From Blautia sp. (GTDB lineage Bacteria > Bacillota > Clostridia > Lachnospirales > Lachnospiraceae), in assembly GCA_017515325.1 (NCBI GenBank), contig JAFWGA010000057.1:1-64000 (forward strand): a stretch of 64,000 nt of DNA, written 5' to 3'. Below are positions 19,465-36,963 of the stretch, piece after piece; position 1 is the first letter of the stretch; each line of letters opens with the position of its first letter. The notes under the pieces are model-generated. The model searched no databases. It saw only the letters and a list, made by a program, of their open reading frames with translations, and was not told the DNA's origin. The translations under genes were made by a program, and so were the position numbers.

Positions 19465-21446
19465 GTGTGCCGGGCATGGCACTATTCTCACTGGTGAAAG
19501 TCCAGTCACGGGCAATCTACCGCTCGTGTAGTTAAGCGCAAGCCGAAATCGGAGACGATGGGGTGAAAGAAGCGTGTAGCAAAGTCATGAGCCTACGAAT
19601 AGAAACCTGATATGAGGCCAAATGGTGGATAAGGATGCATGACAATCTGAAGTCCGCGGTAGACGTAAAACCAAGACGGTAAATCAGGAGGTTGTGTGAC
19701 GAAAGAATAGTGTCTTACCCCGGGATATCCAGACAGCGTGCCAGAGGAAAGGAGGGATGAGAACCGCTGATGCTGCAGCGGCATCTTACGCACGTGGCGA
19801 CATAAAGCTAATGTCTGGAAGTCAGCTGAGACAATAGGACAGCATCGAGGGAGACTCACCATCTCCCGAAGGGTCTAATGTTAACTATATTGCAGATCGC
19901 TTAAACAAGGTCAGGATATTCTGTACTACACCCGGTAGTGTTCCAACAAGCGCAAACGTATTTCGTGGGGGACAGGAGAGGGAAGAAGATTCCTGACAAC
20001 TCTATGAGAGAGGAGAAGCAACAAGTGGATGATTTATTGGATAAGATTCTTATGCCGGAGAACATACGGGCGGCAATAGACGAAGTCAGGAAGAACAAAG
20101 GTGCGCCGGGGATAGATAAGATGCCGGTTGAAGAACTGATGGGGTACTTTGCGCTCAATGAGTCAGCAGTCATAAGACAGATCCTAATCAAAGAGTATAA
20201 ACCTCAGCCTGTCCGAAGGGTATATATACCAAAACCCAACAGCGACAAACTCCGACCGCTCGGAATACCAACGGTCATTGACCGAGTAGTCCAACAGATG
20301 GTGGCAAGAGTGTTTACTCAAGAGTACGATACCCTGTTCAGTCCCCACAGCTATGGCTTTCGTCCCAACCGGGATTGCCATAAAGCTATGGCAGAAGCAC
20401 TGGGATATCTAAATGAAGGGCGTACATGGATCATAGACTTTGACATCGAAAAATACTTCGACACAGTGAATCATGACAAACTCATCTCAATACTGAGGGA
20501 AAATGTCAATGATGCCATTATCCTGCACCTGATACGATCATTTCTGAAAGCAGGCGTGATGGATAATGGACTAATCAGTCCGACAGAGGAAGGAGTACCC
20601 CAAGGCGGCCCGTTATCGCCTGTGTTGTCAAACATCTACCTCGACAAACTCGATAAGGAACTGGAAGCCCGAGGGCTTGCCTTCGTCCGATACGCTGATG
20701 ATTTTGTGATATTTGCAAGAAGCCATAAATCGGCAGAAAGAGTCATGAAATCGGTCACCAGTTGGATTGAAAGGAAACTCTTTCTGAAAGTCAGTCCTAC
20801 CAAAACGCATATAGTCCCGCCAAGCAAAAGCGAATTCCTCGGATTTGGCTTTTGGAAAAACGGAAACGAATGGAAATGTAAGCCGCTCGCAAGCCGGAAA
20901 TCCAGACTCTGGGATAAACTCAGGGCAGTCACCTGTCGTAGAAAAGCCGCCGCAATTCCACTATCCGTTACCGTGTACAAGGTCAATGAGATTATGCGTG
21001 GATGGATCAACTATTATCGTATTGGTAACATGAAAGGCTTTATGGATCTGACTGGGCAATGGATCAGGCACAAAATACGGGTCATCATGGTTAAACAATG
21101 GAAAAAGCCGAAAACTATCCAGAAGAACCTTCGATGGTACTGCACGGTATTCCATTTCAATTTTTCGGATGAAGATCTGTACAAAGTAGCCAATTCGCGT
21201 AAAGGGCTATACGCACAGTGCAGTGGCGATGTGATTAATTATATTCTCAGCCCCAAAGTACTGGGCATGAAACTGACAATAGGCAAGGGAAGAAATTGTA
21301 GAACGGTTTATCCCGGTCTTGTTAATCCCCTTGCCTATTACCTTGGTACTACTTGATATTGATTTATAGTTGATGTAGCGCCGTATACCCGACCGGTACG
21401 TACGGTGCAACGGGAGGGGCGAGGCGTTTGCCTCCCTCTACCCTAT
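19465..21446 (+). mobile_element. Group II intron (IIC-type)
   Basis: The 5' end is GTGTG at 19465. The 3' end is placed at 21446 (CTAT), because that joint puts the recombinase back into frame. A domain V-like hairpin is seen at about 21377-21411 (GCCGTAT...GTACGGT) and a domain VI-like stem at about 21412-21443. The intron-encoded protein lies inside. Insertion just after a terminator-like stem (19428-19459) supports class C. Its orientation is opposite to the recombinase gene it interrupts, so it cannot splice from the recombinase mRNA. Confidence 0.8.
20004..21356 (+). CDS. ltrA: Group II intron reverse transcriptase/maturase
   Basis: The protein has about 450 residues from the ATG at 20004; a GTG at 19938 would add 22. 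RT blocks are visible: KNKGAPGIDKM, PKPNSDKLRPLGIPT, DFDIEKYFDTVNHD, GVPQGGPLSPVLSNIYLD and the catalytic YADDFVIFA (about residues 232-240). The C-terminal part (GWINYYRIGNMKGFM...) is the maturase domain X. No HNH endonuclease domain follows, as expected for class C. It assists intron splicing and copies the intron into new sites. Confidence 0.92.
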   Translation: MREEKQQVDDLLDKILMPENIRAAIDEVRKNKGAPGIDKMPVEELMGYFALNESAVIRQILIKEYKPQPVRRVYIPKPNSDKLRPLGIPTVIDRVVQQMVARVFTQEYDTLFSPHSYGFRPNRDCHKAMAEALGYLNEGRTWIIDFDIEKYFDTVNHDKLISILRENVNDAIILHLIRSFLKAGVMDNGLISPTEEGVPQGGPLSPVLSNIYLDKLDKELEARGLAFVRYADDFVIFARSHKSAERVMKSVTSWIERKLFLKVSPTKTHIVPPSKSEFLGFGFWKNGNEWKCKPLASRKSRLWDKLRAVTCRRKAAAIPLSVTVYKVNEIMRGWINYYRIGNMKGFMDLTGQWIRHKIRVIMVKQWKKPKTIQKNLRWYCTVFHFNFSDEDLYKVANSRKGLYAQCSGDVINYILSPKVLGMKLTIGKGRNCRTVYPGLVNPLAYYLGTT

Positions 21447-23096
21447 TTTTTGTGTAGGCATTGGCGGTGTAAATTCACCGATGCAGTTCCAAACGATTCT
21501 GATCCGCTGAACCTTTTTGCCATTGACGCGCTCTGCCTGATGAACGTAAATCCGCTCTACGAATTCCCGGATGATTTCTGCGGTCAATTCCCGGATGTCG
21601 GTGTACCTCCGCACCAGGTCGAGGAACCGTCCTACATTGACATTGGCTTCCTGCTCGGAGGCAATCAGGCTGCGCAGCTCGGACACACGGGCTTCGAGCG
21701 TTTTCTGCTCATTCTCGTAGTTTTCACTCAGCTTCACAAAACGCTCATCGTTGATTTTGCCTTCAAGGTTGTCTTCGTACAGATGCTGGATGATCTCGTC
21801 CAGCTTGCGGATGCGGGTCTGCGCCTGCTCCAGTTCACGCTTTCCGTCCCGCAGGCTACGGTCAACCTCGGCGCGTTTCTTCTTCGTAACCATCTCCACG
21901 AATTCATCCTCATGGTCTCTGGCGAAAGCAGTTACCGATCTGACGCCGTCGAGCAGAAGTTCCTCCAGCACACAGTTCCGAATCTGGTGTGAAGAGCAGA
22001 TTTCCTTGCCTTTCTTCCGGTATGTGGCACATACCATGTGCTCCTGCTCATGCGTCCATCCACGATGACGCACCTGATACAGTTTCGCTCCGCAATCGGC
22101 GCAGAACACCATGCCGGACAGAAGGGGCATCTCACCCATTGGCGTCACCCTGCGTCTGCCGTCCCTAATGCGCTGTACAATGTCGTAGGTCTCCTGATCG
22201 ATGATGGCTTCGTGAGTGTTCTCGAAAATCTGCCACTCGGATGGATCGTTCTTCAGCTTCTTTTTCTGTTTGTAGGACTTGCGATAGGTCTTGAAGTTGA
22301 CTGTGTGACCGAGGTACTCCGGGCGGGACAGCATATGCGAAACCGTGCTGCTTGTCCATTCGTAGTTTTCAGTGTCACTGCGGTTGTCAGCAATCTGCCG
22401 TCCGTTGGCCTTGGCATAAGCCGTGGAATTCAGCACATGGCGCTTGCTCATTTCATTGGCGATCTGCGATACGCCATACCCCTGTACGCACAAACGAAAC
22501 ACCTCCCGCACGTTCCCAGCTGCCTCCTCATCAACAATCCAGTGCAGCTTATCTTCGGGGTCTTTGACATACCCGTAAGGCGGGTTTGTGCAGAGCGGCT
22601 TTCCCGCCTGCCCCTTCGCTTTGAATACGGAGCGGATTTTCCGGCTGGTATCCTTGGCATAAAACTCATTGAAGATGTTGATGAACGGCGTCATGTCGTT
22701 CTCTGCCTGATTTGCGCTGTCCACTCCGTTATTGATGGCGATGAAGCGCACGTCGGCGTTGGGGAAAACCATCTCCGTATACATGCCGACCTTCAGGTAG
22801 TCGCGCCCGAGGCGGCTCATATCCTTGACGATGATCGTACCGACTTTTCCCTCATCCACCAGCCCCATAAGCCGCTGCCAGTCCGGTCTGTCGAAATTCG
22901 TACCACTGTAGCCGTCATCCACGAAAAAGGCTGTGTCGGTAAAACCGTTGTCGTCAGCGTACTTTTGCAGGATAGCCTTTTGGTTCTTGATGCTGTTGGA
23001 ATCACCCTGCAGCTCGTCATCTCGCGAAAGACGACAGTAGAGGGCTGTGATTTTATCATTCTTCTTCGTTGCTGCCGAAGACTGTCTTATGCTCAT
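21438..23096 (-). CDS. Large serine recombinase (TnpX/Tn4451 type), 3' end replaced by intron
   Basis: The start at 23096 ([12 protein letters not shown]) has GGGAGG upstream. The 552-residue protein has the resolvase domain (about 15-160; [12 protein letters not shown] with catalytic Ser about residue 21), a recombinase domain (about 190-300), a zinc-ribbon ([14 protein letters not shown], about 355) and a coiled coil (about 430-500). It cuts and joins attachment sites to excise and integrate the island. The present stop (21438) lies inside the intron. Joining the exons would give PTQKKETA and a stop at 19450-19452, as homologs end, so function may be intact. Confidence 0.9.
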
Positions 23097-36509: not shown

Positions 36510-36963
36510 AAGAAAAAAAGAAGTAAAACAAAAAGAAGTTCCCAAGGGGAAAATTATCGCTCAGGGTGGAGATCCTGAGCGATATTATTCAGAAAACCCT
36601 GCTTGGACGTTTGCGAATGCTGATCAGGAGATGTGGGCATTCTCTCTAGATCATATCGGAACTGCTATTTGGACGGAGATACTTCCAAGGCTTCAAGCAT
36701 TAGAAACCCAGACTTGGAGTGAGATACTGATTCGCAATAAGAAACAAAATCACTCGTTGGATTTGAATGAACTGAACAAAGCAGCTCAGGATAGACTTGC
36801 CGCAAGGTATATAGAAGCAGAGTCGTTGATTTCGTTAAGGATTACTGGTAATCATAGATTGTATGGTTACATGGACGGTAGGGTTTTCAATATACTATGG
36901 TATGATGATGACCACGGAGATAATAAAACATGTGTATGTAGATCTCGTTTAAAACATACATAA
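36496..36963 (+). CDS. Putative toxin paired with the Panacea antitoxin
   Basis: The 155-residue protein overlaps the antitoxin gene. After a basic N-terminus, a core reads YYSENPAWTFANADQEMW (about 31), then SLRITGNHRLYGYMDGRVFNILWYDDDHG (about 113). The latter resembles the SRxRLFG...FxxLWWDPxHE end of RelE/ParE-like folds. It is probably the toxin partner of the pair, but no fold can be proven from sequence. A terminator follows at 36965. Confidence 0.6.
   Translation: MADSKRKKEVKQKEVPKGKIIAQGGDPERYYSENPAWTFANADQEMWAFSLDHIGTAIWTEILPRLQALETQTWSEILIRNKKQNHSLDLNELNKAAQDRLAARYIEAESLISLRITGNHRLYGYMDGRVFNILWYDDDHGDNKTCVCRSRLKHT

Follow-up and report, generated by a model that had tools for sequence, protein, structure and literature searches.

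A probable cos-type phage satellite family of Clostridia with a lone HK97-fold capsid gene that lacks the delta domain

The best-known phage satellites are those of staphylococci, enterobacteria and vibrios. Capsid-forming phage-inducible chromosomal islands (PICIs) are satellites with a capsid gene of their own plus a set of head and packaging genes, and Tn4451-type transposons carry the large serine recombinase TnpX together with TnpW. In SaPIbov5, a Staphylococcus aureus pathogenicity island (SaPI), the HK97 capsid homologue Ccm joins the capsid protein of the helper phage phi12 to form small isometric T=4 shells and blocks the helper; its delta domain has 87 residues against 128 in phi12, and the Ccm authors mention that the length of this domain has been proposed to relate to capsid size (accessible parts of PMC8569155 and PMC5052747). 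Here we analyze a 64,000-nucleotide stretch of Blautia sp. DNA (GCA_017515325.1, contig JAFWGA010000057.1, positions 1 to 64,000; hereafter the window) containing an integrated island with a single HK97-fold major capsid gene. An earlier note on this DNA had proposed the island as a candidate phage satellite that borrows a helper's virion, with capsid-forming PICIs as the model.

The island resembles SaPIbov5 in having one HK97 capsid homologue and a cos-like site, a candidate counterpart of the helper cos site that SaPIbov5 carries. It differs in that the delta domain, kept in Ccm according to the accessible text of those papers, is absent from the island's capsid protein, and in its serine recombinase and TnpW (replaced in some relatives by a Tn916-type tyrosine integrase), its other hosts and likely helpers, its restriction cargo, and its cos-like sites, of which there are often two. 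With capsid-forming PICIs the island shares an own capsid gene, but the several head and packaging genes and the tyrosine integrase of those elements were not encountered: there is one capsid gene only, and the window has a serine recombinase. The TnpX-like recombinase and TnpW are shared with Tn4451-type transposons, whereas the island instead has a capsid gene, a primase and a cos-like site, with no mobilization gene seen among the window open reading frames (ORFs) scanned with Pfam. Candidatus (Ca.) Heliusvirales and HK97-type streptococcal phages (phi1207.3 type) encode full-length relatives of the capsid protein and have the same site of about 90 nt beside an HNH gene, but these are complete phages: their capsid protein has a delta domain, and they also encode a protease, portal, terminase and tail proteins. 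As in other satellites, an own recombinase and defined ends are combined with the lack of a full virion gene set, and as in PICIs there is a divergent XRE regulator with an HTH_17 (Xis/AlpA-like) protein and a primase, the latter broken in the window copy. The satellite part of the earlier proposal is supported, while the plain capsid-forming PICI gives way to a cos-type SaPI with Ccm as the closer model, because there is one capsid gene only and the small and large terminase genes (TerS and TerL) are each found in 0 of 52 related loci.

The island probably belongs to a cos-type family of phage satellites that is widespread in Clostridia, and its capsid protein, which lacks delta, would remodel the capsids of a helper. 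This reading is drawn from DNA, namely from the element and its ends, its gene set, selection on the capsid gene, the absence of virion genes in the DNA examined, and the homology and position of the site. A stripped capsid gene with no other known virion gene, restriction genes and phage-type sites together suggest that the island probably travels in the particles of other phages. Hidden Markov models (HMMs) for portal, protease, TerL, head closure, major tail and tape measure, built from phage loci, match 108, 94, 51, 78, 52 and 31 of 108 phage loci and none of 50 loci with a lone capsid gene, although at least 3 kb on either side of the capsid gene is in view in 28 of those 50 and the remainder are seen in part. 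Two lone loci added later (L200 and L201) also have no head or tail match, so the lack of portal, protease, terminase and tail genes that the earlier note had remarked on in the window extends to 52 lone loci in the DNA examined; its counter-scenario, that the capsid gene would always occur with a full co-located prophage, does not apply. Queries for TerS and TerL return nothing in these 52 loci. An HNH query matches one, L200, where a gene fragment (11843-12097) is retained next to the site in the arrangement seen in phages. The window's own genome (an assembly 87.7% complete) has one HK97 capsid match and no match to portal PF04860 or TerL PF03354; any helper would thus be external, unless one was missed.

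The product of the lone capsid gene scores well against capsid profiles (3.1e-56 for PF05065, 4.2e-63 for TIGR01554) and aligns to the major_cap_HK97 model from model position 85 onward. Its first residues already belong to the mature HK97 domain, and the delta domain that would precede them, about 83 residues at the N-terminus, is absent. The HK97 assignment of the earlier note was correct, and we move the start to 24393, where the sequence AAGGAGG, a good ribosome site, lies immediately 5' of the ATG and the in-frame opening further 5' measures 21 codons only. In the printed alignment rows, 80-102 residues precede the window's first residue in phage proteins and 0-5 in lone proteins. Because start choice favours ribosome sites, frame lengths are the firmer evidence for the short start; longer open frames occur in a few lone loci (L137, L177, L182, L200), three with a ribosome site at the usual position. 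The best sequence matches in the PDB are capsids of gene transfer agents (GTAs) and phages, and no encapsulin is named among the 11 matches listed. In a rapidly built tree, which has no bootstrap values and some flagged long branches, a single branch with a Shimodaira-Hasegawa-like approximate likelihood ratio (SH-aLRT) of 100 separates 37 lone proteins from 50 phage proteins (thinned from 112); near-copies (L132, L138, L191, L192, L194, L196) and loci without a capsid reading of more than 280 aa were left out of trees. Ratios of nonsynonymous to synonymous substitution (dN/dS) of 0.055-0.262 in 17 pairs, which are not independent, indicate purifying selection, so the possibility raised earlier of a degenerate capsid gene fails, although the primase of the window copy is broken.

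Assignment of loci as lone or phage relied on context and the N-terminus. A profile-score gap seemed bimodal and was tried as a criterion, but L159/L200 and L201 are lone loci with scores in the phage range. L159, once labelled phage, has a neighbourhood without phage head genes and was relabelled lone, which lowers label changes in the tree from 2 to 1; L185, taken as lone for its short frame, was removed because it belongs to a phage and its capsid frame is broken. Another short-frame exception, L146 (G369:C27, about 10400), is an ordinary prophage: its capsid gene belongs to a full prophage and has a stop inside the delta region of the frame.

Related elements are found across Clostridia, including Lachnospiraceae. 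We sampled 397, 392 and 391 genomes at the levels of family, order and class, in which 40, 49 and 49 genomes, respectively, have capsids of lone and phage type combined (cut-offs differ). The search for the same gene set that the earlier note had proposed reveals a kept order in the 50 lone loci: XRE, HTH_17, primase, small genes and zinc ribbons, capsid, TnpW, recombinase. ORF labels in these loci, many of which are cut by contig ends, include recombinase in 37, TnpW in 32, NrS-1/D5-type primase in 35 and DUF3987-type primase in 5; tyrosine-integrase labels occur in 4/50, and a Tn916-type tyrosine integrase lies behind the capsid gene in L004, L142 and L184. Of the 14 recombinases in the class sample that reach 60% identity, 11 have the lone capsid gene as a neighbour; of the other three, G877 has capsid and recombinase on separate contigs, G992 stops at a contig end, and the third is L204, described below. 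Capsid proteins of 0.96-0.99 identity are spread over genomes of five families in the class, and a genome placed in the same genus as the window genome (G688) has a lone capsid gene. The cargo side often holds restriction systems: PADLOC matches 7 of 10 large cargo-side proteins (types I, IIG and III), in elements whose far ends lie outside the view, while the large cargo-side proteins of L058 and L178 match nothing in PADLOC and that of L138 lies outside its element. The record MT838964.1 (L132), an unverified 'Bacteriophage sp.' entry of 4.7 kb derived from human stool, is a fragment of such a satellite and shares 96.6% identity with the Blautia element L004. Its possible source study, PMC8361208, concerns particle-enriched stool according to the accessible part of that paper; the link is unconfirmed, and a virome origin was not used as evidence.

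The packaging-like sequence noticed earlier is real and occurs twice in the window, as a non-coding site of about 90 nt; the region past HsdS is conserved with L005 and L003. Of the 52 lone loci, 31 are matched by a first HMM, built from 15 lone-element sites, with 39 matches in total; 2.2 Mb of this DNA after 2-mer shuffling gives none. A second, from the 31 best lone sites, finds 58 in 47/52 lone loci, a count partly built in by the training set, and 12 across 132 phage loci. It finds none in shuffled DNA or in four recombinase loci that lack a capsid gene, one of which, L206, is truncated by the end of its contig. The five site-less lone loci (L002, L006 and L138 from a single contig, L055, L196) lie on contigs that end inside the element, and matches are weak in L058, L062 and L200 (16.8, 22.2 and 22.1 bits). 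Position and orientation are regular. The site lies at most 400 nt downstream of the capsid gene in 16 loci, always on the plus strand (16/16), and at most 1 kb upstream in 25, always on the minus strand (25/25), such that its 5' end faces the capsid gene. By our reading of the alignment there are two site types, each found in phages and in satellites; L135, L136 and L004 have one of each, type I on the cargo side and type II by the capsid gene, as if for two helper types. The site core alone is not specific, because a short core with one mismatch allowed occurs 3 times in the window's own genome (2 inside the element) against 7 for the reversed control; its exact pattern has no match in viral_contigs.

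In phages the same site lies beside HNH genes and, in one type, at the place where cos would be expected. A blastn search with the site consensus matches 107 phage records, 86 of them from Streptococcus, with the top bit scores in Ca. Heliusvirales gut phages; the window's own site matches 27 phage records, some by chance. The window's type I sites suggest helpers among the Ca. Heliusvirales, for example the phages of Blautia. Among 16 further phage stretches, seven of them (L210-L216) chosen by site and nine being prophages of lone-locus genomes, 15 have the site in one copy each; of the nine co-resident prophages, which include the cases of lone loci L143 (a fragment) and L144 (truncated), only L222 lacks it. 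Genomes with both an intact lone element and a site-bearing prophage include those of L198/L204, L189/L217 and L192/L218. HNH proteins work with terminase at cos. The site lies within 300 nt of the end of the HNH gene in 22 of 23 HNH-matching phage loci, the exception (L213) having it upstream of ParB-TerS-TerL. Of these HNH-bearing loci, those not chosen by site have it in this position in 16/16, with a weak match of 16 bits in L015; a second copy is present in none of 148 phage loci, and the neighbouring genes are HNH by Pfam in 3/3 tested. In type II phages the site falls between HNH and the small terminase: TerS relatives are directly beside it in 9/9 loci looked at, and the site-adjacent genes of L204, L217 and L099 match Terminase_4. 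Phage-type HK97 capsids are also commoner in genomes with a lone capsid (8/21 against 75/760, p 0.0008; hand counts with classes set by score, frame and checked loci, and a few genomes in both samples), and occur in 2/19 genomes of a recombinase-only control.

One locus joins the two kinds of element. In L204 (G823:C1:44000-63900), a complete prophage is fused to satellite-type sequence at positions 6500-8560 that comprises an element end, a recombinase, TnpW and part of the site. TnpW and the recombinase, with the satellite end motif behind the latter, stand in place of the HNH side and are 92-94% identical to those of L197/L198 and 74% to the window's; on the other side are Terminase_4, methylase, amidoligase, DUF5049, TerL, portal, protease and a full-length capsid gene. 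Compared with L197, site positions 37-90 are identical (54/54) and positions 1-36 agree at 29/36, and similarity to the satellite stops past the site on the terminase side. This pattern would follow from a satellite end joined to a phage end at cos. The same genome also contains the lone element L198. L204 may be a hybrid of satellite and phage formed in nature, or else a phage that carries the integration module of a satellite.

We propose that the island's serine recombinase would integrate and excise it, aided by TnpW and the HTH_17 protein, that the XRE regulator would normally silence it, and that its own primase-helicase would replicate it. The cos-like sites would be copies from HK97-type helpers, at which the helper's HNH endonuclease and terminase may cut and package the island. 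The lone capsid protein, having lost its delta (scaffolding) domain, would co-assemble with helper capsid subunits into a mixed shell small enough to fit a genome of 9-16 kb and to exclude a helper of about 50 kb. It would then be a more extreme form of the Ccm device, presumably one that needs no protease. In a literature search that left subscription papers mostly outside, no serine-recombinase lone-capsid satellites of Clostridia appear among the matches listed. A broader claim stands at about even odds in our judgment: that these are undescribed, widespread cos-type satellites of Clostridia, some with two helper-type sites; that the delta-less protein sets a small capsid size, as the extreme case, with a delta length of zero, of the proposed link between that domain and capsid size; and that satellite and helper fuse at cos in nature, as L204 suggests, to give hybrids that integrate by the satellite's recombinase. 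The sequences argue for a satellite family across Clostridia, and the shared site names Ca. Heliusvirales-type gut phages and their relatives as probable helpers. The family offers a natural delta-less capsid protein for probing how HK97-type capsid size is set, and would account for one route by which restriction systems move among gut commensals.

Several observations weigh against this proposal. Capsid and recombinase identity are weakly coupled (Spearman 0.217; 32/500 permutations as high), so the capsid gene may be exchanged; for the primase the value is 0.271 (3/500 permutations as high). The window's primase is split over two frames and therefore broken; it is a single open frame in L002 and is broken at another place in L003. 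No record-end site match is found in the 60 records listed of the 107 matched, and no phage with mapped ends was found to end there. In type I phages a small gene, without a firm family in 6/6 tested, and then a methylase intervene between the site and TerS, which lies 4-8 kb past it. Several elements hold two sites, the closest phage site is that of the co-resident phage in only 2/10 comparisons, and co-residence with phages may reflect a general mobile-element load.

Two other readings accept the link to phages and differ on what it does. The capsid protein may be a poison only, an anti-phage weapon next to restriction cargo that blocks helper procapsids and yields no productive small particles. 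Expressed Ccm does cut phi12 titre 10^3 to 10^4 fold (accessible part of PMC5052747), defence genes are frequent on the cargo side, and the capsid diverges faster than recombinase and primase in many pairs, as in an arms race. A poison would have no need of the cos-like site so near its gene, however, and that gene lies in the mobility-replication core, outside the cargo; we find this unlikely, if the best placed of the alternatives. The site might otherwise be a different phage DNA element, such as one for late-gene regulation or a replication origin, that links the island to helper activation, with packaging achieved by other means or not at all. Paired copies in several loci and the orientation set by the side of the capsid gene would suit such an element, but phage loci never have more than one, the site adjoins HNH and precedes Terminase_4 in type II phages, and the satellite-prophage junction falls within it. 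A structured RNA was considered and rejected, since by our reading of the alignment the type I hairpin is not retained in type II sites. We judge a non-cos role to be quite improbable.

A Tn4451-like mobilizable transposon with phage debris, moved by conjugation, would explain the TnpX-like recombinase and TnpW, but not a capsid gene that is under purifying selection and keeps its place beside most related recombinases; moreover, Pfam finds no relaxase among the window ORFs scanned (relatives were not scanned for it), and we consider this reading very unlikely. Least credible of all is that the gene encodes a cargo shell of the encapsulin kind or is what remains of a decaying prophage. In having no protease, a lone HK97 fold does resemble encapsulins, and the window's primase is broken, yet the best sequence matches are phage and GTA capsids, and purifying selection, the cos-like site and many relatives with intact frames speak against this reading.

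The coordinates of the island's features are collected in the table. Its extent was set by alignment to the related element L005, from the genome of an uncultured member of the Clostridia, in pieces of 79-94% identity; the mobile element of the earlier note is real, and its limits of 21438 and 36963 move outward to approximately those tabulated. The window element measures about 17.7 kb (17692 between the end motifs), or about 15.7 kb without its group II intron of about 2 kb. The other two-ended locus, L005, is 9.0 kb, and the ends of L198/L231 imply about 14.5 kb by arithmetic. The terminal inverted repeat is imperfect. Among the 50 loci scanned, 10 have an outward end motif, AAATCCC followed by two T/A and A, 38-56 nt past the stop codon of a recombinase; by chance about 6 occurrences would be expected across all the scanned DNA of those loci.

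Features of the island in the window, in order of position
Feature	Coordinates	Strand	Evidence
Whole integrated element	19385..37089		homology with L005 ends there; unlike DNA outside
Left end, inverted-repeat half site GGTGCAACTTAGGGATTTC	19395..19413	+	same motif behind relatives' recombinase
Group II intron with reverse transcriptase (ORF 19938-21356)	19464..21455	+	Rfam RF02001 at 19546-19713
Large serine recombinase (TnpX-like, DUF4368)	21438..23096	-	Resolvase, Recombinase, Zn_ribbon_recom, DUF4368 domains
TnpW	23174..23335	-	PF14202, 9e-12
Lone HK97-fold major capsid protein, 308 aa, no delta domain	23467..24393	-	PF05065, TIGR01554
Zinc-ribbon-like protein 1	24407..24715	-	weak zinc-ribbon match under Pfam cut-off
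Zinc-ribbon-like protein 2	24734..25027	-	weak zinc-ribbon match under Pfam cut-off
Small conserved protein, 89 aa, no family	25024..25293	-	relatives in 28/50 loci
Primase-helicase C-terminal piece (DUF3987)	25473..26240	-	Pfam
Primase-helicase N-terminal piece	26270..28021	-	frame broken between this and C-terminal piece
HTH_17 excisionase-like protein	27979..28167	-	Pfam
XRE-family regulator, divergent	28498..28944	+	Pfam
Cargo: type I restriction system HsdR, HsdM, HsdS	28959..34591	+	Pfam
cos-like site copy 1	34600..34689	-	76.0 bits (first HMM), 65.2 bits (second HMM); phage matches
cos-like site copy 2	34827..34916	+	46.0 bits (first HMM), 54.1 bits (second HMM)
DUF5049 protein	34940..35119	-	relative in prophage L204 directly precedes TerL
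Amidoligase-type phage protein	35109..35846	-	phrog_2443, 3.2e-56
SocA/Panacea-type antitoxin and partner with weak MAG6450-type match	36075..36963	+	profile matches
Right end, inverted-repeat half site	37056..37074	-	comparison with relatives' ends

Profile matches confirm the gene content listed in the earlier note: recombinase, TnpW, HK97 capsid, DUF3987, HTH_17, divergent XRE, HsdR/HsdM/HsdS, DUF5049 and a phage-type gene. Some details change. TnpW is present but at a corrected position, the ORF at 23235-23441 being the wrong frame; the two zinc-ribbon proteins both exist, with matches below Pfam cut-offs; and the DUF3987 primase is there in two pieces. The intron, whose approximate ends are taken from the gap in the alignment to L005, lies antisense at the extreme end of the recombinase gene and seems to substitute its last residues. 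The antitoxin and its partner gene near the right end form a possible toxin-antitoxin pair within the element. Two transposase-like ORF groups lie immediately left of the element (15062-18915), with an rve domain in one tested with Pfam, and a cobalamin riboswitch (RF00174) lies outside it at 42321-42521.

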